A program made the position numbers and the translations under genes. The notes beneath the pieces were generated by a model. That model saw only the letters and a list, made by a program, of their open reading frames with translations, ran no database searches and was not told where the DNA came from. From positions 24,525-88,524 of the forward strand of contig CALVTL010000004.1 in assembly GCA_944362555.1 (NCBI GenBank): DNA of 64,000 nucleotides. Direction: 5' to 3'. The DNA comes from an uncultured Clostridia bacterium. GTDB lineage: Bacteria; Bacillota; Clostridia; Christensenellales; Borkfalkiaceae. Shown piece by piece: positions 28,049 to 42,813 of this stretch (within the stretch, counting starts at the first letter, position 1; each line of letters opens with the position of its first letter).

Positions 28049-29023
28049 ATGGTCGTCTATTGGGAGTACGCCTTTCTTGAAAACGCCGTGTTGGACGGCT
28101 TCCTGCTGCTGCTCGCTTTGAAGTGCGCGCGCATGAAGGTGCGCGCCCTGCGGCTTGCGGCAGCCGCCTGCGCGGGCGGGGCGTTCGCGGTCGCGTTCCC
28201 TCTGATGCGCCTTCCCGTGTGGGCGGCGTACGTCGTGAAGTTCGCGTTCGGCGGTGTTCTGTCGCTTCTGGCGGGGAGCGGAACGCGCGCGAAGAGGTAC
28301 GCTCTTCTCGCCGTCTGCTTTTTTGCCGTCACCTTTCTCTTCGGCGGCGCCTTGACGGCGCTCTATGCGTTCTTCGGCATAGAAACTGCTGACGGGACAG
28401 GGTTTTATTTGGAGCGCGTTCCCGTTGCGCTGCTTGTCGGCACGTTCGGGCTTCTGGGTGCGGGGGTGATCGCGGCGGCGAAGGCGTTCTTCCGCTTCCG
28501 CGCCGTCGAACGGAACCTCATCCCCTGCAAATTGGAAAACGCGGGAAAAACCCTGTCCTGCACGGGGTTTTATGACAGCGGAAACTGCCTCGCCTTTCAG
28601 GGAAAGCCCGTGTGCGTCATCTCCGCCGCGGGGGTGTTCGCCCTGTTCGGTGCCCATCCTTCGCCCGTCGGCAGGATGCGTATTACCACGGTGAACGCAA
28701 GCCGCTCCTCGCCCGTCTTTTGCTGCGAGCGCCTTGTGGCGGGCGGCGCCGCGTTTGAGCACGTTCTGCTGACGGTGGGGGACGTCGGGGAGCGCTTTCA
28801 GATCATATTCAATCCCGCACTATCGGAGGGGGTCGATGAAACTGCTTTATTTTCTCAAAAATTGGCTCATGCGCCTCAAATCGGGCGAAAACGTCGTGCA
28901 TTATCTGTGCGGAAGCGAGGCGCTCCCGCTGCCGCTCTCCCCGGAGGAGGAGGCGGAGCTGCTGAAAAAGCTGGAGGAGAACAGGGAGGCGGAGGAGGTC
29001 AAGGCGAAGCTCATCGAGCATAA
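28049..29023 (+). CDS. spoIIGA: Sigma-E processing peptidase SpoIIGA
   Basis: The N-terminal half has five hydrophobic helices. The C-terminal half has the aspartic-protease motif FYDSGN (Asp176). SpoIIGA cleaves pro-sigma-E in the mother cell after forespore signalling. The frame does not stop at the usual place: it runs on to 29023, 188 nt into sigE, adding about 63 residues of Gly/Ala-rich sequence dictated by sigE codons. The functional protein probably ends near [15 protein letters not shown] box ends 11 nt before the ATG; no convincing -35 or Spo0A box was found. Confidence 0.85.
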
Positions 29024-29546
29024 CCTGCGCCTTGTGGTGTATCTCTCGCGCAAGTTCGAGAACACGGGCGTCGACGCGGACGACCTCATCTCCATCGGCA
29101 CCATCGGGCTCATCAAAGCCATCAACTCCTTCCGCACCGATAAAAATATCAAACTTGCGACGTACGCCTCGCGCTGCATCGAGAACGAGATCTTAATGTA
29201 TCTGCGCCGCACGGTGAAGCTGAAGAGCGAAGTCTCCTTCGACGAGCCGCTCAACACCGATTTCGAGGGGAACGAGCTGCTCCTCTCCGATATTCTGGGC
29301 ACGGACAGCGAGGCGGTGTACGGCGGCGTGGAGGCGAACGTCGAGAAGGAGCTCTTAAAAGAGGCGCTGAAAAAGCTGCCCGAGCGCGAGCGCCGCATCA
29401 TGGATATGCGCTTCGGGTTGAGCGGAAGGGAGGAGATGACGCAAAAGGACGTCGCCGATGAGCTGGGCATTTCCCAGAGTTATATCTCCCGCCTGGAAAA
29501 AAAGATCATCGAGCGCCTCAAAAAAGAGATCTCCAAATTGGTGTGA
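28836..29546 (+). CDS. sigE: RNA polymerase sporulation sigma factor SigE
   Basis: 236 aa, normal for sigma-E. A short pro-sequence starting [14 protein letters not shown] is followed by region 2 ([26 protein letters not shown] and [21 protein letters not shown]) and region 4 with the helix-turn-helix [19 protein letters not shown]. It directs mother-cell gene expression. GGAGGGGGTCG precedes the ATG, and the gene starts inside the spoIIGA frame. In many relatives sigG follows at once; here it is 12 kb away. Confidence 0.96.
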
Positions 29547-29569
29547 CGGGAAAAGAAGGCGCGCGGGAA

Positions 29570-29725
29570 GGCGGCTTCCCCTCGGGAAGTGACAACAGGC
29601 GAGGGGATTCCTCACGCTCGCCTTCGGCTCGGTTCGGAATGACATAAGGAGTGTCATCCCGTCCGAACGCTCGCCTTCGGCTCGGTTCGGAATGACATAA
29701 GGGACGGCAGGCGGTGATGGGGGCG
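29570..29725. repeat. Dispersed repeat cluster at the left edge of the inserted region
   Basis: Two direct copies, 53 bp apart (29614-29649 and 29667-29702), of a CGCTCGCCTTCGGCTCGGTT-GGAATGAC unit. The same unit recurs at about 31920-31953, and related units lie at 41490 and 42870. No gene. Confidence 0.8.
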
Positions 29726-30040
29726 TTACGAATCGCTTTTTTCGATGCCGAGCAGACATAAAAGCGCCTGCCGCTTGTCGGGCGGGAGGGCGCGGTCGCG
29801 CTCCAGAAGCGCGGTCTCCTCCCTTGTCAAAAGCTGCGGCTCTTCCTCCTCGCGGAAGAACTGCGCAAGGGTCAGACCGAACGCATGGCAGAGCTGCTCC
29901 AGCACGTCGAGCTTGGGCGGCGTGTTGCGCTCATAGACGGATGCGAGCGTCGACTGCGGGATCAGAGCCTCCTGCGCAAGGCGGTAGTCCGTCCAGCCGC
30001 GCTCATTTTTGAGTTGTCTGATGCGTTCGATCACGTTCAT
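29726..30040 (-). CDS. XRE family helix-turn-helix regulator
   Basis: 104 aa. The HTH spans about residues 3-60 (RIRQLKNERGWTDYRLAQEA and IPQSTLASVYERNTPPKLD), followed by an acidic tail (FFREEEEPQLL) and LPPDKRQALLCLLG, a common layout in small clostridial regulators. No clear ribosome site precedes the ATG. A perfect 25-bp palindrome 45 nt upstream may be its operator. Adjacent to the surface-protein cluster, which it might control. Confidence 0.82.
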   Translation of the reverse strand: MNVIERIRQLKNERGWTDYRLAQEALIPQSTLASVYERNTPPKLDVLEQLCHAFGLTLAQFFREEEEPQLLTREETALLERDRALPPDKRQALLCLLGIEKSDS

Positions 30041-30084
30041 ATCAAATGAGAAAAAATAACAAACTGCCAAAAACGTGGGAAGGT

Positions 30085-30109
30085 GCGGGTGTCAGAATCT
30101 GACACCCGC
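30085..30109. promoter_or_regulatory. Perfect 25-bp palindrome, candidate operator
   Basis: Arms GCGGGTGTCAGA / TCTGACACCCGC around one central base. It lies just upstream of the divergent XRE gene. On plus it is followed by TTTCGCTTTAT, so a terminator is the alternative. Confidence 0.55.
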
Positions 30110-30180
30110 TTTCGCTTTATATCACCGCGCCCGCCGCCCTTCAAACAGCGCGCCCGCCGCAGGAACGTTCAACAAAGCGA

Positions 30181-30189
30181 GGGGGGGGG
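30181..30189 (+). repeat. G9 homopolymer followed by TATG
   Basis: Nine Gs in the 615-bp gap between the XRE gene and the first signal peptidase. A second G9 tract lies at 31594-31602. The rest of 30110-30330 shows nothing coding. Confidence 0.7.
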
Positions 30190-30330
30190 TATGTCTTTGA
30201 TGATGCGTTCGCCGTCGCGAACATAAAGCACGACCCGTATAGGGACGGGAGCAGAAATCGGCGGATCCCGGCAGGGAGTGCCGAGGAATATTATACCACG
30301 CCGCGGACTACAAAATATATCGCAGAAAAG

Positions 30331-30359
30331 TTGACAAAATATTGTTTTTGCGGTATAAT
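30331..30359 (+). promoter_or_regulatory. Promoter of the first SipW-type peptidase gene
   Basis: TTGACA, 17-bp spacer, TATAAT, with a leader of about 290 nt. The leader contains the stem-loop GTTCAC/GTGAAC (30544-30574, inner TTGTG/CACAA), then a run of seven Ts at 30587-30593. It may be a regulated leader. Confidence 0.75.
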
Positions 30360-30655
30360 GAGGTCGAAATCAAAAATGTTTTTTATGAATTTCACGCGCA
30401 TTTTGTGTTGATTGTTTTCAAACGGCGCACATACATATTTGCATAACGCACCCCGTTTTGCGCATACGTTGTACAAAAAACGGGTCAGATTACGCGAAGA
30501 TTTATAACCGAAAAGGGGCGTTTTTCGCTCCGCAGCCCACCAGGTTCACGTTTGTGGTGATACACAATGTGAACGGGTTTGTCGTCTTTTTTTGAAAAAA
30601 TTTTTTTCTGCGGTAAAAAAATTTTCCCCATTTTCCTTTTCATTACGGAGATACC

Positions 30656-31585
30656 ATGGACGTAAAACTCCCTTCTATGCAAGACGCGGACAGCGGCGAA
30701 ACGACAGAGCGCCTTATGCCGCAGCCCAATGAGAGTGCGCCGGAACACGCGGCGGAACAGTCCGCCGCGCCCAAAGAGCCTATTTTTTCGGAGCGCCCCG
30801 AATGCCCCGACGGTAATGAAAAAAATGAACAATCGGGCGGGGAGCAGGCGAAGGGCAAGCGCCGCACGGGCGACATCGTCGCCATCGTCATCATGGCGGT
30901 GCTCTCCGTTATCCTCATCCCCGTGCTTGCCGTCAACCTTTCCCTTATTATCAAAGGCAGCCTGCGGCAGGACGTTCCGCCCGATATTTTCGGTGTCGCG
31001 CCGCTTGCCGTCACGTCCGGTTCGATGGACGGCAGCGAGGAGGACAGCTTCCCCGAGGGCGCGCTCATCTTCGTCCGCATTTTCTCGGAGGAGGAAAAGC
31101 AGAGTCTGAAGATCGGGGACGTCGTCACCTTCCGCGCCGCCGATAACGCCTATGTCACGCACCGCATCGTGGATGTCACGACGGAGGGGGAGCAGATCGT
31201 CACGGTCACGACGCGCGGCGACGCGAACGCCGTGACGGACGGTGCCATCGCCATCGGGAACGTCATCGGCATCTGCACGGGGCACGTCAACGGGCTGGGC
31301 GATTTCTCCATCTTTTTGCAGACCCCGTCGGGCATTCTGGTGTTCATCGGCATTCCCGTGCTGCTCTTTATTGCTTACGACGTCACGCGCATCATATTAT
31401 ATAACCGCAGGGCGAAGCGGGAGGTTGTCGCGGAGGGCGGGGAACAGCTCGAACAGGCGCAGTCCGAACTTGACAGCGCGCGCAATGAACTGCGCGACAA
31501 AGAGGAGGAGCTCGCCCGTCTGCGCGCCCAACTCGCCGAACGCGTGAAACAGGCAAATTCCGACGAAAACAGCAAAACCTCTTGA
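30656..31585 (+). CDS. SipW-type (Ser/His) signal peptidase I with coiled-coil tail
   Basis: 309 aa. A long acidic cytosolic N-terminus (1-70) precedes one helix (72-100). The extracytoplasmic catalytic domain has the SGSM nucleophile (Ser123) and VTHRI with His169 in place of the bacterial Lys, the hallmark of the SipW/ER-type subgroup. A second helix lies near 218-240. A charged coiled coil at 250-300 (EEELARLRAQLAERV) is unusual for the family. It likely matures the T[FY][AS]RY[ST] proteins encoded downstream. The stop codon overlaps the next promoter's -35 box. Confidence 0.88.
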   Translation: MDVKLPSMQDADSGETTERLMPQPNESAPEHAAEQSAAPKEPIFSERPECPDGNEKNEQSGGEQAKGKRRTGDIVAIVIMAVLSVILIPVLAVNLSLIIKGSLRQDVPPDIFGVAPLAVTSGSMDGSEEDSFPEGALIFVRIFSEEEKQSLKIGDVVTFRAADNAYVTHRIVDVTTEGEQIVTVTTRGDANAVTDGAIAIGNVIGICTGHVNGLGDFSIFLQTPSGILVFIGIPVLLFIAYDVTRIILYNRRAKREVVAEGGEQLEQAQSELDSARNELRDKEEELARLRAQLAERVKQANSDENSKTS

Positions 31586-31608
31586 CAATTCTCGGGGGGG
31601 GGTATAAG
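31582..31608 (+). promoter_or_regulatory. Promoter with G9 tract in the spacer, possible phase-variable switch
   Basis: TTGACA (31582-31587), 15-bp spacer made of ATTCTC plus nine Gs, TATAAG (31603-31608). Two extra Gs would give the ideal 17-bp spacing. It would drive the TasA-like gene at 32067 through a repeat-filled leader. Confidence 0.55.
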
Positions 31609-31639
31609 TAGGAATAGACGAGGGCGCGGCAAAGAGCAG

Positions 31640-31975
31640 CGCTATGATAGTAGCTCCTTCAGTCACTGCGTGACAGCTCCCTCAAAGAGGGAGCCATCGG
31701 ACGAGGGTGCGGAGGAATCTGCCCTTGCCTCCCTCCGTGAGGGAGGTGCCGTCCGACGCAAGGAGGAATGTCCCGCTTGCGGGAGAATTCCGACGAAGCG
31801 GCGCACGAGCCCCAAGGGGGCGAAGTGGCGGAGCGAGGAATCCCTCGGACTCTCCCCACGTCATTCCGAGCGAAGCGAGGAATCCATTGGGAAGAGATAA
31901 AGAGCGAGGAGATTCCTCACACTCGCCTTCGGCTCGGTTCGGAATGACGTAAGGGGCGTCATTCCACCCCACACA
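31640..31975. repeat. Dispersed palindromic repeats in the 5' leader of the TasA-like gene
   Basis: At least three units: CTCCCTC/GAGGGAG with TCACTGCGTGA, CTCCCTCCGTGAGGGAG, and GTCATTCCGAGCGAAGCGAGG with its inverted partner ending GGAATGAC. No gene. Confidence 0.8.
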
Positions 31976-32066
31976 AGGCGGGAAAAATTACACCAAGGTA
32001 AAATCGGCGACTGTGCCACACGCGTTGCCGTTTTACATAAAAACAAATTGAAAGGAGTAGGAAAAA

Positions 32067-32810
32067 ATGACAAAGAAGAAGAGCATCATCACGAAGTTGT
32101 TTGTTGCGCTTGTCGCACTGACGCTCATCAGCTGCTGCTTCCTCGGCAGCACGTTCGCGCGCTACACCAGCGGCGGGAACGGAAGCGCTACGACGAACAT
32201 TGCACTGTGGGATGTCAGCCTTACCGGTGCAGGTTCGTCCGGGGCTTTCGATGTATCGCTTGCCGAGAAACTTACGCCCTCTGCGGAAGAGTATAGCGAC
32301 GCCAAAGATCGTACGAACACCACGGGTAAGGTTCTCGTTGCAACGATCAAGTACAACATTGAAGTCGCAGGCAACCTGACGATCACCGCATCCGATCTTT
32401 TGCCCGTGTTCAACACCGGTACTAATCAGGCGGGGACTGCTTATGCAACCGCACTTGGCTCGGGAATGTCCGTGGGCGAAGGTGCTGTTACGGGTACGCC
32501 TTCGCAGGATCAGTTCAACAAGGTGTTCGAGTTGAAACTGTATACGGGGACGGATCAAGGCGGAACAGGAAGCCAAGACTACACCAGCGGAAGCGAAATC
32601 ACGATGACGGTTGGTTCTGCGCAGACACTGTACGTCTTTGCGGAAGTGACTTGGACGTCGCTTGATACGGATGCAACGCTTTCCGGCACGAGTGAGACGC
32701 TTGCAGATGCCATCGACACTTGGTTTGGTGAAAATCTTGCATCTCTTTCGACGACGTTGACGTATAAGGCAGTTCAGAGCGCCCAGATCCCCGCAGCATC
32801 GGGTGACTGA
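32067..32810 (+). CDS. Secreted TasA/camelysin-like protein with SipW-type signal peptide
   Basis: 247 aa. The signal segment is residues 8-30, ending LGSTFARYTSGG. Mature-start features resemble the TasA/CalY family: small polar residues, then IALWDVSLTG and a beta-rich Thr/Ser/Gly body with SAQTLYVFAEVTW, typical of this Ig-like fold. TasA forms extracellular fibres in Bacillus biofilms. There is no sortase motif and no C-terminal helix. AAAGGAG precedes the ATG. Family placement is by signal motif and general fold; low sequence identity is expected. Confidence 0.75.
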   Translation: MTKKKSIITKLFVALVALTLISCCFLGSTFARYTSGGNGSATTNIALWDVSLTGAGSSGAFDVSLAEKLTPSAEEYSDAKDRTNTTGKVLVATIKYNIEVAGNLTITASDLLPVFNTGTNQAGTAYATALGSGMSVGEGAVTGTPSQDQFNKVFELKLYTGTDQGGTGSQDYTSGSEITMTVGSAQTLYVFAEVTWTSLDTDATLSGTSETLADAIDTWFGENLASLSTTLTYKAVQSAQIPAASGD

Positions 32811-33228
32811 TTTTTCAAAAATCAGAACGAACAATTTTTTTCCAGACTTCTAAAAAATAATTGCCGTGCCGCGTAGGTGTGGTATCGATGGCAGGGCGTA
32901 AACGCAGACATTCGTCGCATCGGCAAAAGGGCTTTTTGAAAAAAGTCCGCTCCCTTCGCGCACCTTAAAAAGGCGCACGCGTCCCTCCCTTTTGGGGGGT
33001 GCAGGAAGGGTCGTCGAAGGTGGCGAGAGGTCTGCAAGCGGGGAAAAATTTCCCGTGCGTCCGCTGTGTACGCTTTCCGCTATGCGGTCAAAGCGTACAC
33101 AGAGCTCACGGGCGAAGAAAAAATGGGGAAAGGATGAGACCATTTTAGCCTCTTCTATAAGGGGGGCAGTCGCATTGCCGCACGTTTTGAACGGGTGCAG
33201 TATTGCAGGATAGCATAATGGAGACATT
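32811..33228 (+). other. Non-coding gap with a long perfect hairpin
   Basis: 418 bp without a gene. At 33066-33100 GTGTACGCTTT pairs with AAAGCGTACAC, and CCGC/GCGG stacks inside. A CCCTCCCTTTTGGGGGG element lies near 32983-32999. The last bases supply GGAGACATT as ribosome site for the next gene. Confidence 0.7.
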
Positions 33229-35316
33229 ATGAGCGAACAGGATAAGGAAAACAAAATCGTCCCCGACGAAGAACGGGAGAATGCCGCCTCCGTGCAGGAG
33301 GAGCTTTCCGCTGCCGCGAACGACGCCGACGGGGTGCAGGTAGAGGGCGGCGAAGGCACGCAGGAAGAGGGCTTCCCCTTGGGGGGAAGCTGTCCCAAAG
33401 GGACTGATGAGGGGAACGGCACTGTTTCTCGTCATCCCGAGGAGCCGCAGAGCGGCGACGAGGGATCCCATGGGGCAGCGACAGAGAGTGAGGGGATTCC
33501 TCAATCGGCTGCGCCTCATGACGGAATGACGGAAAAAGAAGGCAGTGAAGGCGCGGACGACGATGCTCTTGCCTCCCCTGTGCAAGGGGAGGTGGACGAC
33601 GCGGATGCGTCGGACGGAAGGGTTGTAGAAGGCAGCGAGGGCGGGATGCCCGTTCTGCCGCCGATGGAGAAGCGGGAGCGGCTGACGTTCGCCGAGAAGA
33701 TGTCGGAGGCGGGCTATGTCGTAGGCCGCCGTTACGACGCGGTGAAAAACGCCTTTTTGAGCTACAAATCGACGTTAAAGCGCCCCAAACCGCTGCATTG
33801 CCGGTTCTCCACCAACAGCGAGACGTTCACCGTCGGGAAGAAACTCCTCGCCAAGCTGGTCTTGGTGAGCGGTTATCTGCGCCTTTTTGTGGCGCTCGAT
33901 CCCAAGGCATACAACGAACAAAAATACCATCATAAGGATTATACCGAGGTCGCCCGTTACGAAAAGACCCCGCTTATGATCAAGCTCTCGTCCGACAGGC
34001 AGGAAAAGTACGCCGTCGAGCTCATCGACGATCTGATGCGCGCCAATAACTTTGAGCCGGACGAGAACTATGTGCCGACCGACCAGGCGGACGTGTTCAT
34101 GACCGCCGCCCGCACGCGCAAAAAGACCAAGGTGGTCTATGTGCCCGTGCCCGTCGGCGGCGCGGGAGGGGACGCCGCCGCAGAAACCGCCGCGGCGCAA
34201 GACGGCGCGCAAAAAGAGGGCTTCCCCTTGGGGGGAAGCTGTCCCGAAGGGACTGATGAGGGGGACGGCGCGCAGGAAACGAGCGAAGCCCCTCATCCGT
34301 CTGCTGCGCAGACACCTTCCCCCGAGGGGGAAGGCAGCGAGGCGGCGCTTTCCGAAACGGAAGAGCTCACCCCCGAGGGGGAAGGCGGCGAAGGCACGCA
34401 GGACGACGATGCTCTTGCCTCCCCTGTGCAAGGGGAGGTGGACGACGCGGATGCGTCGGACGGAAGGGTTTCCGAAGGCAGCGAGGGCGAACCCGCAGCG
34501 CCCGAACGGGAGAGCAGCGAAGAACGGGCGCTCGTTCCTGCGCCCGACGCCATCGACGTCAAGCTGCCCCGCCGCGGGCGCGTCCGCAACAAGAAGGGCG
34601 AGCGGTGCGGCAAGATCCGCCGCAGCGTCTGGTACTCCGAAGAGGGCGACACGCGCGGCGAGTTCCGCAAAGAGGAGCGCAACGTCTTCCTCTACTCCGA
34701 CAAAGAGCGCAGGTGCTACGTCGATAAGAACAACAACATTTTAGCGCTCGACCACACCTATGTTGCCACCATCCATCGCACGTCGTGGCTGCCCATCCTC
34801 ATCATCGTGATCATCCTCGCCATCGCGACGGTTTTGTCGGTGGTGCTCGGCGCATACTTCTTAAATCGCAGCGTTGATTACGCGCCCGTGCTGTTCATCG
34901 CGCATGAGGACGGAACGCAGTGGCAGGACGAGGAAGATCTGCCCGTCTTTGTCAACGAGACCTTCGGCGACGCCAAAGTCGCCCCGGGCATGGAGGGCAG
35001 TTACCGCTTCTCCCTGCGCAACGATAACGACGACGCGCTCGTATTCTCCCTTCTCTTTGAGGAGGAGAATGAATACGGCATCGGGCTTGTCTACAAATTA
35101 AAGCGTGACGGCGTGTATGTTTCGGGCGCGGAAGGTCACCTTTCGCCCGGGGAGCTGGGCGTCACCGAGATGACCATCGAAGCCCGCTCCACCACGGTAT
35201 TCGAGATCGAGTGGTATTGGGCGCACAACGACGAGGCAGACACCGCCGCGGGCGAAGCTGCCGCCGACTACACCCTGCATATCGCGTTCAGCGCCTATGT
35301 GAGCGATCGGGCGTGA
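33229..35316 (+). CDS. Membrane protein with repeat-derived disordered segments and exported camelysin-like domain
   Basis: 695 aa, type II topology. A cytosolic N-terminus (1-145) and a linker (329-420) are disordered; both are largely translations of intergenic repeats. Between them (about 145-290) is a folded domain with LALDPKAYNE-like FVALDPKAY and KYHHKD motifs, recurrent in clostridial proteins of unknown role. A positively charged region (445-515) precedes one helix at about 519-546. The exported C-terminus has VAPGMEGSYRFSLRNDN, like TasA/CalY Ig-like folds. It may anchor or assemble the fibre, as TapA does in Bacillus; this is inference. Confidence 0.75.
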   Translation: MSEQDKENKIVPDEERENAASVQEELSAAANDADGVQVEGGEGTQEEGFPLGGSCPKGTDEGNGTVSRHPEEPQSGDEGSHGAATESEGIPQSAAPHDGMTEKEGSEGADDDALASPVQGEVDDADASDGRVVEGSEGGMPVLPPMEKRERLTFAEKMSEAGYVVGRRYDAVKNAFLSYKSTLKRPKPLHCRFSTNSETFTVGKKLLAKLVLVSGYLRLFVALDPKAYNEQKYHHKDYTEVARYEKTPLMIKLSSDRQEKYAVELIDDLMRANNFEPDENYVPTDQADVFMTAARTRKKTKVVYVPVPVGGAGGDAAAETAAAQDGAQKEGFPLGGSCPEGTDEGDGAQETSEAPHPSAAQTPSPEGEGSEAALSETEELTPEGEGGEGTQDDDALASPVQGEVDDADASDGRVSEGSEGEPAAPERESSEERALVPAPDAIDVKLPRRGRVRNKKGERCGKIRRSVWYSEEGDTRGEFRKEERNVFLYSDKERRCYVDKNNNILALDHTYVATIHRTSWLPILIIVIILAIATVLSVVLGAYFLNRSVDYAPVLFIAHEDGTQWQDEEDLPVFVNETFGDAKVAPGMEGSYRFSLRNDNDDALVFSLLFEEENEYGIGLVYKLKRDGVYVSGAEGHLSPGELGVTEMTIEARSTTVFEIEWYWAHNDEADTAAGEAAADYTLHIAFSAYVSDRA
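33365..33624 (+). repeat. Intergenic-type repeats embedded in coding sequence, block 1
   Basis: Contains the CTTCCCCTTGGGGGGAAG unit, a TCATCCCGAGGAG...GGAATGACGG unit and a CCTCCCCTGTGCAAGGGGAGG unit, all read in one frame. Residues about 46-132 of the 695-aa protein. The last 70 bp (33555-33624) recur identically at 34401-34470. Confidence 0.85.
34214..34470 (+). repeat. Intergenic-type repeats embedded in coding sequence, block 2
   Basis: The same units as block 1 plus a CCTTCCCCCGAGGGGGAAGG unit and its CCTCATCCGTC neighbour; residues about 329-414. The block-to-block spacing of 846 bp is a multiple of three. Confidence 0.85.
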
Positions 35317-35317
35317 T

Positions 35318-35848
35318 ATGCGCAGAACGGTCCGTATCATCAAAGGCGTGATAAAGGGCGTACTTCTCGCCATCGTCGGCGTCCTCGCCCTTTACAGCGT
35401 GTATATGCTCATTGCGCGCTACGCCTTTCACAACGAAATGCCCTCCTTTTTCGGGCTCTCGTTCGCCGTTGTGGCGACGGGCAGCATGGAGCCTGCCATC
35501 TCGGCGGGGGATGTCATCGTCGTCTGCGCGCAGGAGACGTATGAAGAGGGCGACATTGTCACCTATTATTCCGAAGATTTTCAAGGCTATGTCACGCACC
35601 GCATCGTGAGCAAGACGGGGAACGCCGTCATCACGCAGGGAGACGCCAACAACACGCAGGACTCGCCCATCACCGAGGGCGACATCGTGGGCAAGGTCGT
35701 CTCCGTATGGCGCGGGTTCGGCAGCGTCGTCAACTTTTTGCAGACGCCGCTCGGGCTGTTCAGCGTACTTGCGGGCGGTGTGGTGCTGTGGCTTCTGACC
35801 GATCTTCTGACGGGAGCATTTGGGAAAAAAGATGAACAGGAAGATTAA
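35318..35848 (+). CDS. SipW-type (Ser/His) signal peptidase I, second copy
   Basis: 176 aa, close to standard SipW size. An N-terminal helix (10-32) is followed by nucleophile Ser56 in VVATGSMEP, VTHRI with His94, the box GDANNTQDSPI, and a C-terminal helix (about 144-166). It lacks the N-terminal extension and coiled coil of the first copy. It begins one base after the 695-aa gene and overlaps the 531-aa gene, so it belongs to the structural operon and probably matures its products. Confidence 0.92.
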   Translation: MRRTVRIIKGVIKGVLLAIVGVLALYSVYMLIARYAFHNEMPSFFGLSFAVVATGSMEPAISAGDVIVVCAQETYEEGDIVTYYSEDFQGYVTHRIVSKTGNAVITQGDANNTQDSPITEGDIVGKVVSVWRGFGSVVNFLQTPLGLFSVLAGGVVLWLLTDLLTGAFGKKDEQED

Positions 35849-37427
35849 GAAAAAAAAGATCCCCATTCTTTCCTATCTTTGCTATCTTCTCGTCGTGAGC
35901 GTGCTGTTCACGGGCGTCACTTTTTCGCGCTATTCCACCGCCACGAGCGGCGATCTGGGCGCGAATGTCTCGCCGTTCATTGCGTCGTACCGCATCGACA
36001 ATCTCTCTTCCAACACCTACACCAACGCAAATTTCTGGCTGGAAAACAACACGCAGCAGGGCGTGTCGCGCTATGTGCGCTTTACGGTCGCAAACCATCG
36101 CCCCGCGTCGGAGGCGGCGGGCGCGACAGAACTCACCAGCGACGTCGATCTCTCCTCCAAGATCCGTTTTTATCTCCCCGCCGAGTTTGCCGACAATCTC
36201 GCCATTCAGCTTTTGGGGGAGGACGGCAATGCGGTGATGCCGCAGATCGTCCTCGGCAATCTGATTTATCAGATAACGGAAGATCCGGTAAAACATACCC
36301 ATACAGAAGGCGACATCACGACCGATCTGGGCGAGTATTATGATTATGTTTTAAATAGTTCGAACAAGAAGCAGTTTGTAGATTATACCACAAATCCGAG
36401 AACCATTGAAACGAGCGGCTTCCGCGATTATGCGGCTGCCGCCTGCACCGACGCCACCCTTACCATGAGCGGCGGGCTGGATACAGACGGCGGCACCATC
36501 ACCGCAAAGTGGAATACCACCAACACGCTTACCATCACGGCGTCAAAGACCATGCAGACGTATTCCGTCGGCTTCCGCCGTGTCGAAGGCGCGGGCGACA
36601 ACAAAAACGAAAACGCGATCATGCCGCAGCTCTTTCTCGATCTGGAAAAGGAGATGACGTTCTACACCGTCGAGCTGGATATTCCCACCGTCATGCAGTT
36701 GACGGGCGGCACGCAGCAGGAGCACACCTTCGATCTCTACCTCGCCCTCACCGACAACATTCAGAGCGACGACCTCGACGTCAATTGGACGGAGGACCAC
36801 GATTCCCTTCTTACCAATGGCGGCACATTCAACGGCGCGACGGTCACGGGCTATCACTTCGACTACGACGCAGCCATTTATAAGAAAGTGGACGGAAAGT
36901 GGCAGGAGAGCGGCACCACGCAGATCCGCGTGCAAAAGACGTTTGCAAGAGATAAAGAGCCCGAAAAACTCACCTTCCACCATGTCGCGCCCATCAGCGA
37001 AACAACGGTGAGCTACGTCCATCCCATCGAAGATTTTTATACATTTGCAGATAACAAATTTAAGCAATTTATGGAAAACGACGCGCCCGCGAAGCCCGCG
37101 GACATTGCCGCTGCGCAGACCCTCTTCGGGCTGTGCTCGCAGTTCCAGGCGACGCGCGATCAGAACGTAGATCCCGAATACTATATTTCCTTTGCGGGCG
37201 TCCCCGACGACCCGTTCTACCTCGATTATGCAGGGCAAACGGGAGAAACAGGAGCAACGGGAGAGACCGGCGCAACGGGAGAAACGGAGCAAACGGGGGA
37301 GGCGGCTCCCAAACAGACGACCATCTTAATGTCGTTGAGTAAGAGTTTTTACACAAGTCTGACGGTGGTATTCACGCAGACGTCATTGCCGCGCACGCAG
37401 GGCGGTGCGGAAGGAGGCAGCGTATGA
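35832..37427 (+). CDS. Secreted SipW-substrate protein with collagen-like GXT triplets
   Basis: 531 aa. A basic start MNRKIKKKK leads into a helix (11-28), then GVTFSRYSTATSG, the same motif type as the other two substrates. The body is beta-rich, with a segment of repeated Thr/Ser/Asp-rich strands. Near the C-terminus (about 465-495) are GQTGETGATGETGATGET triplets from an 18-bp DNA repeat. There is no sortase signal. ATG at 35832 follows GGGAAAAAAG; an upstream TTG is possible. It overlaps the next gene by ATGA. Confidence 0.75.
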   Translation: MNRKIKKKKIPILSYLCYLLVVSVLFTGVTFSRYSTATSGDLGANVSPFIASYRIDNLSSNTYTNANFWLENNTQQGVSRYVRFTVANHRPASEAAGATELTSDVDLSSKIRFYLPAEFADNLAIQLLGEDGNAVMPQIVLGNLIYQITEDPVKHTHTEGDITTDLGEYYDYVLNSSNKKQFVDYTTNPRTIETSGFRDYAAAACTDATLTMSGGLDTDGGTITAKWNTTNTLTITASKTMQTYSVGFRRVEGAGDNKNENAIMPQLFLDLEKEMTFYTVELDIPTVMQLTGGTQQEHTFDLYLALTDNIQSDDLDVNWTEDHDSLLTNGGTFNGATVTGYHFDYDAAIYKKVDGKWQESGTTQIRVQKTFARDKEPEKLTFHHVAPISETTVSYVHPIEDFYTFADNKFKQFMENDAPAKPADIAAAQTLFGLCSQFQATRDQNVDPEYYISFAGVPDDPFYLDYAGQTGETGATGETGATGETEQTGEAAPKQTTILMSLSKSFYTSLTVVFTQTSLPRTQGGAEGGSV

Positions 37428-40400
37428 CGAACAAGCGCAATCTCGTGATGGGGATCTTTTTGTCCCTGCTCATTATCACGCTCATGACGTTTTCCTTGAC
37501 CTACGCGCGCTACACCGACGAATTGCAGTCGGACGGCGAGATCAGCGGGGACATCGAGTACATCGTCTCCAACCAGATCGAGGTGGATTCCGTCAATTCC
37601 TTCATTTCCGCCATCGAGAACGGCTACACGAACATTAAAATTTCCGACGACGTTGACAATCCGCTCGTCATCACGGGCGGCGTTTCCGACGTCAACTCCG
37701 ATCTTACCATCGACCTCAACGGGCACGAATTGCAGCGCAACAACCGCGACCCCGTGCTCAACGTCACGGACGGCGTCCGCCTCACCATCAAGGACTCCAA
37801 GGGGGGCGGGTGCTTCTATAACCCCGTCGGCAGCGCGCTGCGCGTTTCGGGCGGCACGCTCACGGTGACGAGCGGCATCTTCGAGAGCGGTCCCCGCACG
37901 GGATATGAGTATCCAGAGAACGGCGACGGCTTTATCGACGCCAATTACCGCTATGCGGGCGAATATGTCGAAGGGAATGAGAGCCAAGCAGGGGCGACCA
38001 TCGGCAGCGCAGAAGCCGTCACCTATTATACGCCGGACGGCAGCGGGGGATACAGTGGAACTCCCTCAAAAATGCCCATCATCACGCCGAAAGTGCTGGA
38101 TACGGGCAAAACGACAGAGGATAAAGAGAAGCGCTTCCGCATCAACGGGAATATGTATTTTGAAAACGATTATTCCGCGCAGATCCCCGCCGACACCTAC
38201 CTGTATTACACCATTTCGGGCGCCAATGTCGAGAACACCAACATGGCGGCGACCGATAAGAGCGCCAATTTCTACTATACCTATTATGTCAAGTATGTCA
38301 AGCAGGAAGCGGACGACACAGTCTCTTATGAGGGCACAACGGAGGGCGAAGACACCCTCCTCGTCACCATTTACGGCTACACGAACGTAAAGGGCGGTGC
38401 GACCGATTCTGCCAACTTTGCCGCCATTCAGATGGAGGACGGCTATCTCGACGTGCAGGGCGGCAGATATACCGCCTATTTCGGCAAGGGCGAGACCAAC
38501 TGCGTCTACGCCTCGGGCGGCGAGATGACCGTGCAGAACGGCGCGTTCGAGGCGCTTCAATCGGGCGTCTGCGTGCGCATGGCGTCGCAGAGCACCTCGG
38601 CTGCGGCGGGGAAACTTGCCGTCAGAAGCGGCTCGTTCTATTCCCAGGAGGGTGACACCATCTTCGTCACGGGCGGCAATATGTCCGTCACGGGCGGAAC
38701 ATTTATAAAAGTAGCAGAGACATCGCAGATGGTGCCGGGCGCAAACAACGCCGCCATCCACGTCAGCGGCGGCAAGCTCGTCATGACGGGCGCAGGCGAG
38801 GATAATCGTATCACATTCAGCCTCACGGGCTCCCACCTGTACGGCATCAACGTGGAGCACGGCGAGGCGTCCACCCTTGCCGAGGGCGACATGGCGGAAA
38901 TTTCCTATGCCGCCTTCACCTTTGAGGGCGTCGGCAACAACAATTACGCCATCAATTCCGCGAACGCAGCCGTTTCGGTCAAAAATACAAATTTCACGTT
39001 CGGCGGCGCGAGCACTTCCAACCGCTGTATCTCCGTTTCGGGCGGGAACGCAAAGGCGAGCGTATCGTCCGCCACCTTCACCTACAACGGCGGCAGCAGC
39101 AATTATGCCGTCTATTCGGAGGGCGGAACTGTCACGGGCGCCGACCTCTCCTTCGCGTTCAACGGGGACGGCTCCTCCAACACGGGCATTTACACCACGG
39201 GCGGCACGGTCACAGTCGAGAACGGCGAATTTAAATTTTTGGGCACGCCAGGCAGTTCCAGCGATAACTTCGGAATTTATTCCGAAAAGGGGCCGGACGG
39301 CGATGCGGGCACTATTATCTGCGACGATTCCACGTTCGTCATCAACGGCTCTTATTCCGCAGGCATCCTCGCCTTCGGCGGCACCGTCACGCTGAGCGGC
39401 AAATTTTATTGCAAAGTGGTGGACGGGCGCCCTTCGCTCGATGGTCAAAATAACGTTCTTTCCAGCACGGCGATCAGCGTCGAGGGCGGCATCGTCAATT
39501 TGGATTTGGATAAAGATAAAGAAAACCCGAGCACCATCACGACCAACGGCTTGGGTATCACCTCGCTGCCCGGGGACGGTGCAAATTCCAAAATCAACAT
39601 CAATGGAAATCTGACGCTTGTGCCCGAGACGGGTGGGGACAACGGCACCGCCATCTATCTGAACGGCGGCACGCTCAAAATTGAAGCAGGCGCCAAAGTC
39701 GATATTACCTGTAACCTGGCAAAGAGTGGCACGAAGGCGCTCCTCTGGGCAGATGCACCCAAAGGCACGTCGCATACCGTCGCGAAGACCGACCCCAACA
39801 ACGGCATTTACGTCAACGGCGGCTCCCTTATTTCCTATGGCACCCTCAACGTCACCCACACCGGGGTGCAGAACGATCGGTATGAAAATCAGACTGAAAA
39901 TACAGGAAATTATGCGTTCTTAAATCAGCAGATCAAGAGCTATGCGGTGCGCGTTGAAAGTTCGGGTGAGGCACAACCCAAAGTCACCATCGAAAAGGGT
40001 AATATCCAAAATTCCGTCGGCGGTGGGGTCTATGTTTCAAGCGGCACTGTCAAACTTGGAGCTTCGGAAAACGCTTCGGAAAACGCGGGGACTTCGCAAA
40101 ACACTTTGAACATAGCCACTACGGGTAAGGATTTATATACTAACGGATATTATGACGGAAATTATTATGACGGAAATTATATTGGGACTTCGGGTACTTG
40201 GACTTATAATCAAAGCCAAACGGGCGGTCATGCCGTGGAAGTCGGCGGCGGACGGCTTACCATTTTGGGCGGGAGCTATAAAGCCGCCCACGGCAACGGC
40301 ATCCTTGTCCGCAATATGGGCACCTCGACGGACAACACCGTCAATATTTCGGGCGGAACGTTTATCGGCGGCTACAACAAGACAGACGGCGGCAGGCAAG

Positions 40401-41362
40401 TCGGTCCCGGTGCCTCGTACGGGCTGTATGTGATGAGCGGGAATATCACGGTCAATATTTCCGGCGGGACGTTTGGATCGACAGCGAGTTCAACCAAAGT
40501 GGTGGAGAATGTTTCGATCGGTAACAACAGTGCCGCGGCATTCATGGGAACGACGTCGGGCAACGCTGAAGTGCACATCACAGGCGGGAATTTCTATGCC
40601 TATAACGGCGACGCGATGAGTGTGTTCCGCTTTGCGGATGTGACTTTTGGCTCAGAATCGGAGCCGTTGGATGGTGATGAGAATCGTGTTGAGATTGGTA
40701 CGGAACAGACTTCCGTCGATGTTGCCGGTATTTCGGTTCAAGATGATTTATTGTTTACGGGAGAAAGAAATAGGGGTTCCAATCTTACGATTTATTCAGA
40801 GAACGACAACGGCTTCAAAATCGATTCGCAGGGTTATGCGATCTACTACGGTGGCTCGCAGGACAAAGTTGCCATTTACGGCGGAACGTTTACGGGAACA
40901 GATAGTGGTAGTGGGATCCAAATTTCCGCTGGTTTGGGCACGACGCACGCTATGGTGATCAAGGGCGGCACGTTCAATGGGGGGAATGCGTTCTACTATG
41001 GCGCCAGTGCAAGTGTGGACGACGGTCTGCTCATCGAAGGCGGAACGTTTACAGGAACCAACTACGGATTCTATTTTAATGCAAACCCTTACTCGAATTC
41101 CGCAGGGACAACAAATAATGTAGCCATCATCGGTGGTGTTTTCTCGGGCGATTCAAGGGCATTTTATGCCACTGATCACTCGATTAAGGTTGGGGACGTA
41201 TTTACCGAGCATAATCAATCGCCCAATCGATACGCAACGTTTGATAAAGGTGGTCATGTAGGGAATGTCGGAGGAGGAAAAGGAGATCGCATAACAGGGG
41301 ACTGGAGTTATCAATCGCAATTAAATGAAAAAGAGTATAGGCTCACAATTACAAATCCGTAG
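37424..41362 (+). CDS. Giant secreted beta-helix protein with SipW-type signal peptide
   Basis: 1312 aa. The signal segment (8-27) ends SLTYARYTDELQ. From about residue 75 on, the protein is a series of short Gly/Thr-rich turns such as DLTIDLNGHEL, VSGGTLTVTSGIF and KGGTFNGGNAFYYG. These recur every 20-30 residues, as in right-handed parallel beta-helix adhesins and carbohydrate-binding proteins. There is no C-terminal anchor. The last third (from about 40020) is visibly richer in A and T and in simple repeats, hinting at separate origin. GGAGG precedes the ATG. A surface adhesin or fibre component is inferred. Confidence 0.8.
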   Translation: MTNKRNLVMGIFLSLLIITLMTFSLTYARYTDELQSDGEISGDIEYIVSNQIEVDSVNSFISAIENGYTNIKISDDVDNPLVITGGVSDVNSDLTIDLNGHELQRNNRDPVLNVTDGVRLTIKDSKGGGCFYNPVGSALRVSGGTLTVTSGIFESGPRTGYEYPENGDGFIDANYRYAGEYVEGNESQAGATIGSAEAVTYYTPDGSGGYSGTPSKMPIITPKVLDTGKTTEDKEKRFRINGNMYFENDYSAQIPADTYLYYTISGANVENTNMAATDKSANFYYTYYVKYVKQEADDTVSYEGTTEGEDTLLVTIYGYTNVKGGATDSANFAAIQMEDGYLDVQGGRYTAYFGKGETNCVYASGGEMTVQNGAFEALQSGVCVRMASQSTSAAAGKLAVRSGSFYSQEGDTIFVTGGNMSVTGGTFIKVAETSQMVPGANNAAIHVSGGKLVMTGAGEDNRITFSLTGSHLYGINVEHGEASTLAEGDMAEISYAAFTFEGVGNNNYAINSANAAVSVKNTNFTFGGASTSNRCISVSGGNAKASVSSATFTYNGGSSNYAVYSEGGTVTGADLSFAFNGDGSSNTGIYTTGGTVTVENGEFKFLGTPGSSSDNFGIYSEKGPDGDAGTIICDDSTFVINGSYSAGILAFGGTVTLSGKFYCKVVDGRPSLDGQNNVLSSTAISVEGGIVNLDLDKDKENPSTITTNGLGITSLPGDGANSKININGNLTLVPETGGDNGTAIYLNGGTLKIEAGAKVDITCNLAKSGTKALLWADAPKGTSHTVAKTDPNNGIYVNGGSLISYGTLNVTHTGVQNDRYENQTENTGNYAFLNQQIKSYAVRVESSGEAQPKVTIEKGNIQNSVGGGVYVSSGTVKLGASENASENAGTSQNTLNIATTGKDLYTNGYYDGNYYDGNYIGTSGTWTYNQSQTGGHAVEVGGGRLTILGGSYKAAHGNGILVRNMGTSTDNTVNISGGTFIGGYNKTDGGRQVGPGASYGLYVMSGNITVNISGGTFGSTASSTKVVENVSIGNNSAAAFMGTTSGNAEVHITGGNFYAYNGDAMSVFRFADVTFGSESEPLDGDENRVEIGTEQTSVDVAGISVQDDLLFTGERNRGSNLTIYSENDNGFKIDSQGYAIYYGGSQDKVAIYGGTFTGTDSGSGIQISAGLGTTHAMVIKGGTFNGGNAFYYGASASVDDGLLIEGGTFTGTNYGFYFNANPYSNSAGTTNNVAIIGGVFSGDSRAFYATDHSIKVGDVFTEHNQSPNRYATFDKGGHVGNVGGGKGDRITGDWSYQSQLNEKEYRLTITNP

Positions 41363-41381
41363 TAAATTGAAACACATATTT

Positions 41382-41410
41382 AAAAGGGCGCACGGGTGTG
41401 CGCCCTTTTT
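41382..41410 (+). terminator. Terminator of the surface-protein operon
   Basis: AAAAGGGCGCAC-GGGT-GTGCGCCCTTTTT. Confidence 0.9.
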
Positions 41411-41439
41411 CCGCGCTCTCGCTCCAACCCGTTATACCG

Positions 41440-41640
41440 CCGTCCCTGTGCCCCAACCCGTCATCCCGCCCGACCCCAATCGTCATCCCGAACGTATGTG
41501 AGGGATCTCCCCGCATTTGCATTTTGTCCCTTGCCACGGGATTCCTCCGCTCCACCTTGTTCCGCGTTCGGAATGACAGGGAGGGGAGGAGCCTTCCCCC
41601 ACGGGGGAAGGTGTCACGAAGTGACGGATGAGGGGTCATG
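41440..41640. repeat. Dispersed repeats at the right edge of the inserted region
   Basis: Several CGTCATCCCG units, a GGAATGACAGG unit, and CCTTCCCCCACGGGGGAAGG joined to TCACGAAGTGACGGATGAGGGG, the same modules as at 1-444. The stretch 41641-41820 carries CGCCTTCGGCGG and CGGCGCGGGAGTCCCCCCGCGCCG hairpins but no gene I can support. Confidence 0.8.
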
Positions 41641-41820
41641 CCAGGAACTTTTTTCTTTGCTGTCCTCCTCATCACCGCCTTCGGCGGAGCCGTCTCGGCG
41701 GCGCGGGAGTCCCCCCGCGCCGCGCATCATTTCATCAATATGGAACGCCCGTATAAAATGCGGCTCGTTCGCGCATACTTCCCTTGTACAACATGGCATT
41801 TTCATGCCAAAGGAGGGGGT

Positions 41821-42591
41821 ATGCTGCAAAAGGTCAACATCTGCGGCGTGGATACCGCAGGGCTTCCCAAGCTCTCCCACAAGGAGAACGAGGAGCTGAT
41901 GCGCCGCTTAAAATCGGGCGATAAAGCCGCGCGGGACAGGTTTATCATCGGAAATATGCGCCTTGTGCTCTCGCTCGTCAAGCGCTTCTGGGCAAAGAAC
42001 GCCAACGCGGACGACGTCTTTCAGGCGGGCTGCGTGGGGCTTATCAAGGCAATCGACGGCTTCGACCTTTCTTTCAACGTCAAATTTTCCACTTACGCCG
42101 TTCCGATGATCCTGGGTGAGATCAAGCGCTATCTGCGCGACGGGAACTCGCTGCGCGTCTCCCGCTCCATCCGCGACGCCGCCTATCGCATCTTAAAGGT
42201 GCGCGAAAGTCTGGAGGAGCACGACGAGGAGGCAACCATCGAACGCATTGCCGAGGTCATGCAGGTGCAGCAGCGCGAGGTCGTCTATGCGCTCGACGCC
42301 ATCTCCGACCCCGTTTCGCTCTACGAGCCCGTTTACAATAAATCGGGCGACACGCTGCAGCTCCTGGACCAGCTCTTTGACGAAACGCAGAGCGAGGAAC
42401 GCTGGACGGAGCGCGTCGCCTTAAAGGACGCCATCGCCCGCCTTGCCGAGCGTGAACGCAAGATCCTCACCCTGCGCTATTACGAGGGCAAGACGCAGAC
42501 GGAAATCTCCGAGGAAGTGGGCATTTCGCAGGCGCAGGTCTCCCGCCTCGAAAAAAACGCCATCGGCACCCTCCGTAAAGAGATCGGCTGA
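41821..42591 (+). CDS. sigG: RNA polymerase sporulation sigma factor SigG
   Basis: 256 aa. The N-terminus MLQKVNICGVDTAGLPKL matches the sigma-G-specific start. Region 2 (NMRLVLSLVKRFW, VGLIKAIDGFDLSFNVKFSTYAVPMI) and region 4 with HTH TQTEISEEVGISQAQVSRLEK are intact. It controls late forespore genes. GGAGGGGGT precedes the ATG; an upstream in-frame extension is not supported. Normally next to sigE, here displaced by the surface-protein cluster. Confidence 0.96.
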   Translation: MLQKVNICGVDTAGLPKLSHKENEELMRRLKSGDKAARDRFIIGNMRLVLSLVKRFWAKNANADDVFQAGCVGLIKAIDGFDLSFNVKFSTYAVPMILGEIKRYLRDGNSLRVSRSIRDAAYRILKVRESLEEHDEEATIERIAEVMQVQQREVVYALDAISDPVSLYEPVYNKSGDTLQLLDQLFDETQSEERWTERVALKDAIARLAERERKILTLRYYEGKTQTEISEEVGISQAQVSRLEKNAIGTLRKEIG

Positions 42592-42609: not shown

Positions 42610-42813
42610 GTGTCATCCGAAAATTTCTCAATGTCGTTCCGGGGATTTATCAATGTCATTCCGAGGAATTTTTCAACGACATTCTGAAGCATTTCTCGAC
42701 GTCATTCTGAAGCATTTCTCGACGTCATTCCGAAGCATTTCTCAACGTCATTCCGAAGCATTTCTTAACGTCATTCCGAAGCATTTCTTAACGTCATTCC
42801 GAGGAATGAAATG
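42610..42813. repeat. Tandem ~23-bp repeats
   Basis: About nine units with starts at 42610, 42631, 42653, 42676, 42699, 42722, 42745, 42768 and 42791. The consensus is ACGTCATTCCGAAGCATTTC plus three bases. The three central units (42722-42790) are nearly identical. The unit resembles the dispersed GTCATTCCGAGGAAT repeat, from which it may have expanded. It follows sigG. Confidence 0.9.

Follow-up and report, generated by a model that had tools for sequence, protein, structure and literature searches.

A widespread six-gene SipW operon with exchangeable candidate switches, located between sigE and sigG in an uncultured Clostridia bacterium

We analysed a 64-kb stretch of DNA from an uncultured Clostridia bacterium, hereafter the window, in which the 12.3 kb between the end of sigE (29546) and the start of sigG (41821) hold an operon that is a widespread, conserved unit with exchangeable, predicted on/off switches. 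Its gene order (SipW1, fibre-like protein, membrane anchor, SipW2, Sec530, giant repeat protein) was unchanged in all 37 loci, 30 of them complete, and SipW1 preceded the fibre-like gene at every locus carrying both. Among the seven incomplete loci, L135, L138, L148 and L153 were interrupted at contig ends, L128 and L133 lacked the first one or three genes despite upstream DNA being present, and L145 gave no match for the anchor. The contents of the sigE-sigG junction differ between relatives, and the genes at the head of the operon are exchanged. The original prediction contained neither the conserved unit nor its switches, and the interchangeable switches at the operon head are what is new. 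This six-gene version of a SipW operon extends over several genera of gut Clostridia, all uncultured, and four of its proteins went unnamed by the libraries searched. The explanation that we consider probable as a whole is that a self-contained surface-export operon entered the junction in a single insertion, is expressed all-or-none from two promoters, P1 and P2, and has had its switches exchanged among lineages.

The operon and its products

The XRE-family regulator of the insert (29726..30070, minus strand; HTH_3) is divergent from SipW1 and belongs to the inserted unit. Its homologues adjoin the operon in L120, L121, L125 and L131, and weakly (29%) in L139; among its PDB matches SinR (E 0.009-0.015) ranked behind DdrO (E 0.002). 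SipW1 (30656..31585, plus strand) and SipW2 (35318..35848, plus strand) matched TIGR02228 at 69.9 and 77.5 bits (cut-off 51.85), and scored 78.6 and 64.2 bits with the Bacillus SipW equivalog NF046067, under its cut-off of 190. We take the motif of SipW/archaeal-type signal peptidases to be a catalytic Ser in SGSM or TGSM and a His in THR, and the translations contain it, as TSGSMDG..THRIV in SipW1 and ATGSMEP..THRIV in SipW2. The THR part is encoded by 22 identical nucleotides in the two genes.

Three proteins, starting at 32067, 35832 and 37424, have an N-terminal hydrophobic stretch that ends in TFARY, TFSRY or TYARY. The fibre-like secreted protein (32067..32810, plus strand; 247 aa, signal ...CCFLGSTFARY) is TasA-like by context only, and its TFARY-type signal recurs with slight variants throughout 15 aligned members. 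The 893-nt tract around its gene (31995..32887) is 97.4% identical to G071, as against 65-86% for the other matching stretches. The membrane anchor (33229..35316, plus strand) comprises an N-terminal domain, one hydrophobic stretch recognised by eye, and a conserved ectodomain with the motif EWYW...DT.AGE. Sec530 (35832..37427, plus strand) is a large, mostly beta secreted protein (AF2 pLDDT 85). Its N-terminal region is similar to the corresponding region of the fibre-like protein (hhalign 96%, E 2e-9 across 87 columns, the signal included). The giant repeat protein (37424..41362, plus strand; 1312 aa), also secreted, has GGxF repeats, appears beta-helix-like by eye, and is probably a tip or adhesin. 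Homologues at a threshold of E 1e-5 occurred in 14 of the 103 congeneric genomes, the window genome counted, with G061, whose contig stops within the operon, placed among the 89 lacking a match. This content agrees with the XRE regulator, two SipW-type peptidases, three secreted proteins and one membrane protein that had been predicted for the insert.

In the mechanism that we propose, the two SipW-type peptidases would cleave the three proteins at their TF(A/S)RY-type signals, the single-pass membrane protein would anchor the assembly, and the repeat protein would be displayed as adhesin or tip. Judged from sequence, export, signal cleavage and fibre assembly, like XRE binding and switching, are expected of the window strain. 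The original prediction of an extracellular fibre or matrix module held up as regards export to the surface, to which the two peptidases and three matching signals point; the fibre or matrix itself is plausible, and no family or fold match accompanied it. Neither Pfam nor NCBIfam gave a match for the anchor or for any of the three secreted proteins, the fibre-like protein and its 15-member alignment had no Pfam match, and PF12389 (TasA/CalY, Peptidase_M73) matched nowhere in the genome. The TapA model TIGR04087 did not match the window protein and matched 7 of 30 homologues weakly (best E 0.0011). Against PDB sequences, neither the fibre-like profile nor the giant protein gave a match, and the anchor ectodomain gave one proteasome chain at E 0.77. 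In PDB fold searches, neither the fibre-like model (pLDDT 72.5) nor that of Sec530 had a match at E 0.001; for the former, the archaeal bundling pilus 7ueg ranked ninth (E 0.018), and TasA was absent among the best 50 of 1151 fold matches. A likeness between the anchor ectodomain and the fibre-like protein, covering only 24 columns in hhalign at 43% probability, was not used.

In the Bacillus subtilis operon tapA-sipW-tasA, a SipW-type peptidase is encoded beside the fibre protein, and the small XRE-type repressor SinR controls expression. The window operon is alike in having a small XRE-type regulator. It is also alike in pairing a dedicated SipW-type peptidase with an exported protein. SipW-dependent fibres occur in Bacilli (PMC10151520, PMC9674648) and in C. 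perfringens (PMC7395162). Unlike the B. subtilis operon, the one described here has two SipW genes among six, an anchored ectodomain protein, Sec530 and a giant repeat protein; it shows no TasA or TapA family match over cut-off, and its regulator and promoter type vary among relatives. In C. perfringens sipW-bsaABCRSD, according to the part of the report available, sipW is followed by a polymerising secreted protein, and expression is bimodal under two-component control (PMC7395162). In four of the relatives studied here, the operon is likewise headed by a response regulator. That part of the report describes one sipW and no Sec530 or giant protein; in it, bimodality requires the two-component system and no DNA switch is described.

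Control at the operon head

In the 31 named loci that include SipW1, the operon was headed by an XRE gene in nine, a response regulator in four and a serine recombinase in four (with a short frame of 144 aa in L142). Seven had a poly-G tract in the SipW1 promoter spacer, one of these together with a response regulator, two had a G13 tract farther upstream, and six had no recognised switch. At the head of the window's operon no recombinase was found, and the XRE gene stands there instead. Between the sister genomes G141 and G140 one promoter is inverted: the flanks are 92% and 88% identical, while the inner segment is 79% identical when flipped and 51% when left unflipped, and the recombinase, the inverted repeats and both orientations are all present. 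The flipped promoter of G140 scores 10.0 and the best promoter facing SipW1 scores 9.5, so the OFF state of this genome is not certain. The length of G tracts also differs between sister genomes, with G10 in L155 and G9 in L156 in the same promoter.

The relatives share inverted repeats, a promoter, a recombinase gene and both orientations with the invertible promoters of the C. difficile flagellar switch and of Bacteroidales, as far as the excerpts of that literature go, although this is not the window's own type of switch. With the poly-G/C phase variation of Campylobacter, Neisseria and Bordetella, similarly in excerpt, they share a homopolymeric G tract and one-unit length differences between relatives; here, by contrast, the tracts occur in Clostridia, in promoter spacers, and in most members of one genus. 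Among the matches listed from the literature on invertible promoters none named sipW, and among those listed from a second such search none named tasA; the matches listed from open-licence work on phase variation held no account of this operon. Poly-G promoters were present in 88 of 103 congeners and in 17 of 289 other Clostridia. Half of the 16 poly-G runs of at least 8 lay within operon heads, which make up 18.6 of 631 kb (p 6e-9, with region and threshold set after looking and some loci closely related). The 79 poly-G promoter sites that we compared were the first part of a longer list, with one hand-picked match per site. In related lineages the operon would be switched through poly-G in the SipW1 promoter or through an invertible promoter that has a serine recombinase of its own, and in some of them a two-component system perhaps does so. 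Exchangeable switches suggest that producing the structure sometimes carries a cost and that random switching serves as a hedge, much as it does for pili and capsules in other systems.

In the window, the XRE-SipW1 intergenic region contains a G9 tract (30181..30189, plus strand), and a near-perfect, terminator-like palindrome of 25 nt lies at 30085..30109 (plus strand). P1 (30331..30359, plus strand) is a sigma-A promoter, TTGACA-17-TATAAT, that matches the consensus in 12 of 12 positions and is surrounded by the half-site-like ATATCGCA/ATACCGCA. The half-site count is only suggestive of XRE binding because the motif was picked after looking, and the statistics of the dyad score in the promoter spacer are weak (p 0.04 and 0.057 in two of 11 promoters). 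P2 (31582..31608, plus strand; TTGACA-15-TATAAG) lies between SipW1 and the fibre-like gene, with its -35 element overlapping the stop codon of SipW1 and its spacer consisting mostly of a second G9 tract (31594-31602). It was looked for after poly-G promoters were known from relatives, and is a candidate for a switch that acts by slippage on the genes downstream. We propose that P1, beside XRE, would drive SipW1 and P2 the fibre-like gene and later genes, that changes in the number of Gs would bring the P2 spacer, at present 15, closer to the optimum of 17 or farther from it, and that expression of the operon would be all-or-none.

Both the switching at P2 and the fibre admit other readings. 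If XRE alone controlled the operon, with the poly-G tracts of the window decayed or due to chance, then a -10 hexamer matching in 5 of 6 positions, a spacer off the optimum, and the short interval that separates SipW1 from the fibre-like gene in G077 and G061, which at ~60 nt or less leaves no space for P2, would all be accounted for. We nevertheless find this doubtful, as G/C runs of at least 7 number only three in the whole window and two of them are the G9 tracts of the operon, G071 has a G8 version of P2 with TATAAT in the same interval, and most congeners have poly-G promoters, with the reversed pattern in one. The products might instead be displayed without polymerising, as an adhesin or S-layer-like system, a possibility that we rate somewhat higher but still tentatively: the lack of a TasA/CalY family or fold match agrees with it, as does the nature of the two largest products, one a repeat protein and the other unusual and mostly beta. 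Against it, a small secreted protein directly behind SipW repeats the arrangement of one known SipW-dependent filament operon, and the gene order is unchanged at all loci.

A broader reading, toward which we lean slightly, combines a genus-wide phasome of poly-G promoters with a mobile operon whose control was re-invented several times, swaps of the fibre-like gene between species, and P2 slippage that is independent of sporulation even though the switched genes break up the sigE-sigG locus. By phasome we mean a set of randomly switching promoters, and the genus consists of gut Clostridia that carry sporulation genes. The control re-invented at the same spot would take the form of a repressor, a two-component system, an invertible promoter or G-tract slippage. 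Metagenome reads that already exist would allow a test of the poly-G promoters.

The sigE-sigG junction

The left border of the insertion is sigE (28836..29546, plus strand; matching PRK08301 and TIGR02835 above their NCBIfam cut-offs), preceded by a spoIIGA-like gene (28049..29023, plus strand) that matches PF03419 at 1.2e-29 and scores below the TIGR02854 cut-off. The right border, sigG (41821..42591, plus strand), lies above the cut-off of PRK08215 and under that of TIGR02850 (356 vs 457 bits), and is followed by a gene starting at 43052 that was named YlmC-type in the original prediction. The separation of sigE and sigG by an insert was borne out. An element ATACT...TACATA upstream of sigG, which we infer to be its own promoter, is full in 30 of 38 sequences; the window has only the partial form GCATACT...TACAAC (41773..41792, plus strand). 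Sporulation may tolerate insertions at the junction because sigG mostly has this upstream element.

Across 49 congeners, the junction turns out to be a site of repeated insertion and inversion. It was intact in 22, with sigE-sigG spacings of 64-147 bp; an alpha-galactosidase-like gene lay inside the gap in 14 (Pfam was applied to the G012 copy, and the remaining copies are alike by eye); XRE and the operon followed sigE in the window genome and three sisters; and G004 and G015 had XRE alone plus a decayed operon promoter. Six genomes had no readable sigG downstream, and contigs stopped short of sigG in G036 and G109 (alpha-galactosidase) and in G077 and G061 (operon). The midpoint-rooted species tree separated G000, G077, G071, G061, G004, G015 and G072 from all others with a support of 100; G017 was retained, with a branch distorted by its unusual sigG frame (411 aa, of which about 148 match). 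Since XRE and a decayed promoter remain in two genomes, one old insertion with later losses is the best fit, and the operon probably entered the junction once, with its divergent XRE regulator, in an ancestor of the seven-species group. The intact junctions of related genomes, which the original prediction had named as a sign favouring insertion, together with the species tree and the promoter relics, argue for the predicted insertion into a conserved sporulation locus.

The operon also adjoins sigE in L123 and L137, two genomes of another genus, which may point to a favoured site or to one older than we infer. If the position beside sigE were ancestral in the family and lost by most species, no insertion would have occurred in the window; the shared spoIIGA-sigE-operon order fits this, and the operon tree puts L123 and L137 in the group closest to the clade of the window, a group with weak internal support (60). 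We consider it unlikely, because the intact junction is the commonest state within the genus, 12 of the 20 genomes from other genera that carry the operon have a further sigma gene, presumably sigG, beginning at most ~340 bp from sigE, no XRE was found at L123 and L137, where the presumed sigG sits on a different contig, and promoter relics, where sought, were found in G004 and G015 only. The same placement behind spoIIGA-sigE, in the window and in L123 and L137, and a sigK-like gene ~9 kb from the operon in three congeners (G001, G039, G062), could suggest a sigma-E-expressed module of the spore or mother-cell surface that coats or decorates spores, in line with the spore-related role first suggested. 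This is very improbable. P1 is a full-consensus sigma-A promoter, many of the other loci likewise have a promoter of the sigma-A type ahead of SipW1, and the minus-strand XRE gene separates sigE from SipW1. The operon lies behind sigE in just four of the 37 named loci and in four of the 15 congeners that carry it, and spoIIGA-sigE was not found near it in 33 of the 37, several of which end at contig ends. A full sigE (E 1e-100) was present in 92 of 103 congeners, whereas 89 of 103 lacked a match to the giant protein. A sigma-E-driven or spore-coat module was rejected on promoter type, XRE placement and locus distribution; the operon is not sporulation-specific, and a single insertion remains our preferred account of its position.

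The dispersed repeats that had been predicted to flank the insert are present at its borders, but they are not confined to them. The same families occur within the insert at 31650-31970, one border family is also present at position 56, at the start of the window, and repeats were accordingly set aside as cause or marker of the insertion. Two repeat insertions of these families lie inside the membrane anchor gene, at 33352-33643 and 34201-34489, both in frame.

The sigE-sigG junction

Translations together with Pfam and NCBIfam searches confirmed the predicted gene content of the locus, that is sigE (ending at 29546), sigG (starting at 41821), spoIIGA and the intervening genes, in a source genome (G000) of 60 contigs and 1.8 Mb. 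Between sigE and sigG lie a divergent XRE regulator gene (29726-30070, minus strand) and an operon encoding the peptidase SipW1, a 247-aa secreted fibre-like protein (32067-32810), a membrane anchor (33229-35316), SipW2, the secreted protein Sec530 (35832-37427) and a giant repeat protein of 1312 aa. Both peptidases exceeded the TIGR02228 cut-off; the anchor and the three secreted proteins belong to no family in Pfam or NCBIfam. A 23-bp tandem repeat (42622-42805) lies immediately 3' of sigG.

From the 103 genus genomes we took 49, mostly those closest by sigE plus some others, and surveyed the stretch that follows sigE. The junction was intact in 22 of these, with a spacing of 64-147 bp. XRE and operon follow sigE in four (G000, G077, G071 and G061), two of whose contigs stop before sigG, and XRE alone occupies the junction in G004 and G015. 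The only change in G072 (locus L112) is an inversion of sigG in place, 44 bp from sigE, with the direction of ylmC kept. An alpha-galactosidase-like gene, assigned to Melibiase_2 (PF16499) by a Pfam run on the G012 copy only, fills the gap in 14 genomes (loci L072-L075, L176-L183, L186 and L187), with sigG reversed in six of them. The remaining six junctions were of other kinds or unreadable. The ylmC-sigG block is inverted in G113, and the sigG frame of L079 (G017) spans 411 aa with only ~148 aa matching, an assembly error or an altered gene. Insertion into a conserved junction, as originally predicted, was borne out by the 22 intact congeners and appears to be the right reading of the sequence; the spore-related role proposed alongside it was not supported.

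In a midpoint-rooted tree of spoIIGA, sigE and sigG, the four operon carriers, G004, G015 and G072 stand apart from all others with support of 100, some inner branches among these seven being weak. A broken yet recognisable operon promoter still lies beside the XRE gene in G004 and G015. The simplest history would be a single gain of XRE and operon, with three species later shedding either the operon alone or the whole insert. Of 38 sequences, 30 have an ATACT...TACATA element upstream of sigG, and these include junctions of the intact, XRE-only, operon (G071) and alpha-galactosidase types; the element is partial in the window (GCATACT...TACAAC) and incomplete also in G003, G032, G069, G072, G096, G098 and G110. 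We infer that this element is the sigG promoter, and if so, the locus may tolerate insertions because sigG has a promoter of its own.

A conserved operon and its products

The 1312-aa protein as query gave matches in 14 of the 103 genus genomes, and the operon start is present on a cut contig in G061. A scan of named genomes with the Sec530 alignment recovered 37 loci in Gallimonas, Scatosoma, Coproplasma, Borkfalkia and other Clostridia or Firmicutes. The gene order is constant in all 37, 30 of which are complete, and the flanking genes vary between groups. One operon (L104 3713-6491, G075; the same as L152) holds three consecutive fibre-like genes.

In a tree of the concatenated operon genes, the window clusters with G071, G077 and G061 (support 100). 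Nearest to this cluster are L122, L123, L125, L131, L132 and L137 (joint support 91, own grouping 60), of which L122, L123, L125 and L137 belong to the genus of G141. The operons of nine other congeners (L145-L147, L151-L156) fall in a distant group including L150, and those of G069 and G034 lie elsewhere again. This scattered placement of congeners implies that the operon was transferred between lineages or repeatedly lost. In L123 and L137 the operon also lies behind sigE, with no recognised XRE and the presumed sigG on a separate contig. We favour the interpretation that the operon reached a preferred site a second time, although the position may be older and shared. An 893-nt tract holding the fibre-like gene (window 31995-32887; locus L101 12285-13177) is 97.4% identical to G071, compared with 65-86% for the remaining matching stretches, and looks like a recent interspecies exchange of the subunit gene. 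A chimeric assembly could possibly produce such a tract, but would be expected to lie closer to 100% identity. Two dispersed repeats, for their part, have in-frame copies within the anchor gene (33352-33643 and 34201-34489) and behave as coding insertions; the anchor has 695 aa in the window versus 531 aa (open frame) in G071.

In all three secreted proteins the N-terminal hydrophobic stretch ends in TFARY, TFSRY or TYARY, and the homologues examined begin with signals of this type. Over 87 N-terminal columns, signal included, the fibre-like protein can be aligned with Sec530 (hhalign 96%, E 2e-9). Their AF2 models (pLDDT 72.5 and 85, respectively) gave no PDB fold match at E 0.001; a weak lead for the fibre-like protein is its ninth match, the archaeal bundling pilus 7ueg (E 0.018), which the literature relates to TasA. 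For this reason we do not claim TasA membership; the layout would work like that of a SipW-dependent fibre operon. The anchor ectodomain has 32 invariant positions across 11 members; only some lineages have the N-terminal domain of the anchor in full. Among the described relatives consulted here, the C. perfringens sipW-bsaABCRSD operon is closest in layout, and its expression is bimodal (PMC7395162).

Putative switches at the operon head

Judged from sequence, the locus is of interest for a set of putative, exchangeable switches at the head of a single conserved fibre-type operon, and for poly-G promoters across the genus. We compared the heads of the 31 scanned loci that include SipW1. Nine carry an XRE regulator, of two kinds. 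In the window, a perfect sigma-A promoter (P1, 30331-30359) lies between the divergent XRE and SipW1, and P1-like promoters precede SipW1 in 7/7 examined heads with the window's kind of XRE; the second kind (four loci, two of them Coproplasma) has the palindrome TGTACTTGACAAGTRCA on the -35. Response regulators head L126, L127, L129 and L130, each with a further large minus-strand frame beyond the regulator (a kinase only putatively), and recall bsaRS of C. perfringens. Serine recombinases head four loci. A G7-G10 tract lies within the -35/-10 spacer of seven heads, including L129 with its response regulator, and a G13 lies farther upstream in two (L147, L154). No recognised switch was found at six of the 31 heads (L123, L124, L137, L141, L150, L151).

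Between the recombinase gene and SipW1 of G141 (locus L140) lies a promoter bounded by a perfect inverted repeat of 20 nt. The segment was matched in five of 40 genomes of that genus, and the close relative G140 matches in both orientations. Aligned piecewise, the flanks of G141 and G140 are 92% and 88% identical, and the inner 128-130 nt are 79% identical with one copy flipped versus 51% unflipped. The top-scoring promoter points toward SipW1 in G141 and away in G140, where a near-equal promoter faces SipW1 (9.5 versus 10.0 for the outward-facing best). The best promoter within the repeats of L122 likewise points away.

Eight of the 16 G/C runs of at least 8 in 631 kb (37 loci) fall within the operon's 600-nt head region (p 6e-9, with region and threshold picked after looking and loci not all independent). 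The SipW1 promoter tract is G10 in L155 and G9 in its sister genome (L156); an otherwise identical promoter has G8 in G001 and G9 in G075, its position before SipW1 being confirmed in G075 only. The window holds three runs of at least 7, two of them G9 (30181 and 31594). Downstream of SipW1 and ahead of the fibre-like gene, the latter falls in the spacer of a predicted promoter, P2 (31582-31608, TTGACA-15-TATAAG), and G071 has TTGACA-15-TATAAT with G8 in the same interval. Further poly-G promoters of G000 lie on other contigs (C2:72690, C8:47450, C31:5773). A 32-C run 3' of the operon in L149 (16162) is a possible assembly artefact.

The pattern TTGACA-G7+-TANNNT occurs in 88 of 103 genus genomes and its reverse in one; a class sample had it in 19 of 291 (two from this genus; other Clostridia 17/289) and the reverse in five. 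G300, of the same order, has six poly-G promoters of G11-G14. Among 79 sites hand-copied from the genus-wide match list, 74 have spacers of 15-20 though the pattern permitted about 8-28, and only eight have exactly 17. A first downstream gene was found for 28 of 30 sites examined; classed by eye, 12 are lipoprotein-like or secreted, six ABC-transporter, three SipW1, one pilin-like and six others.
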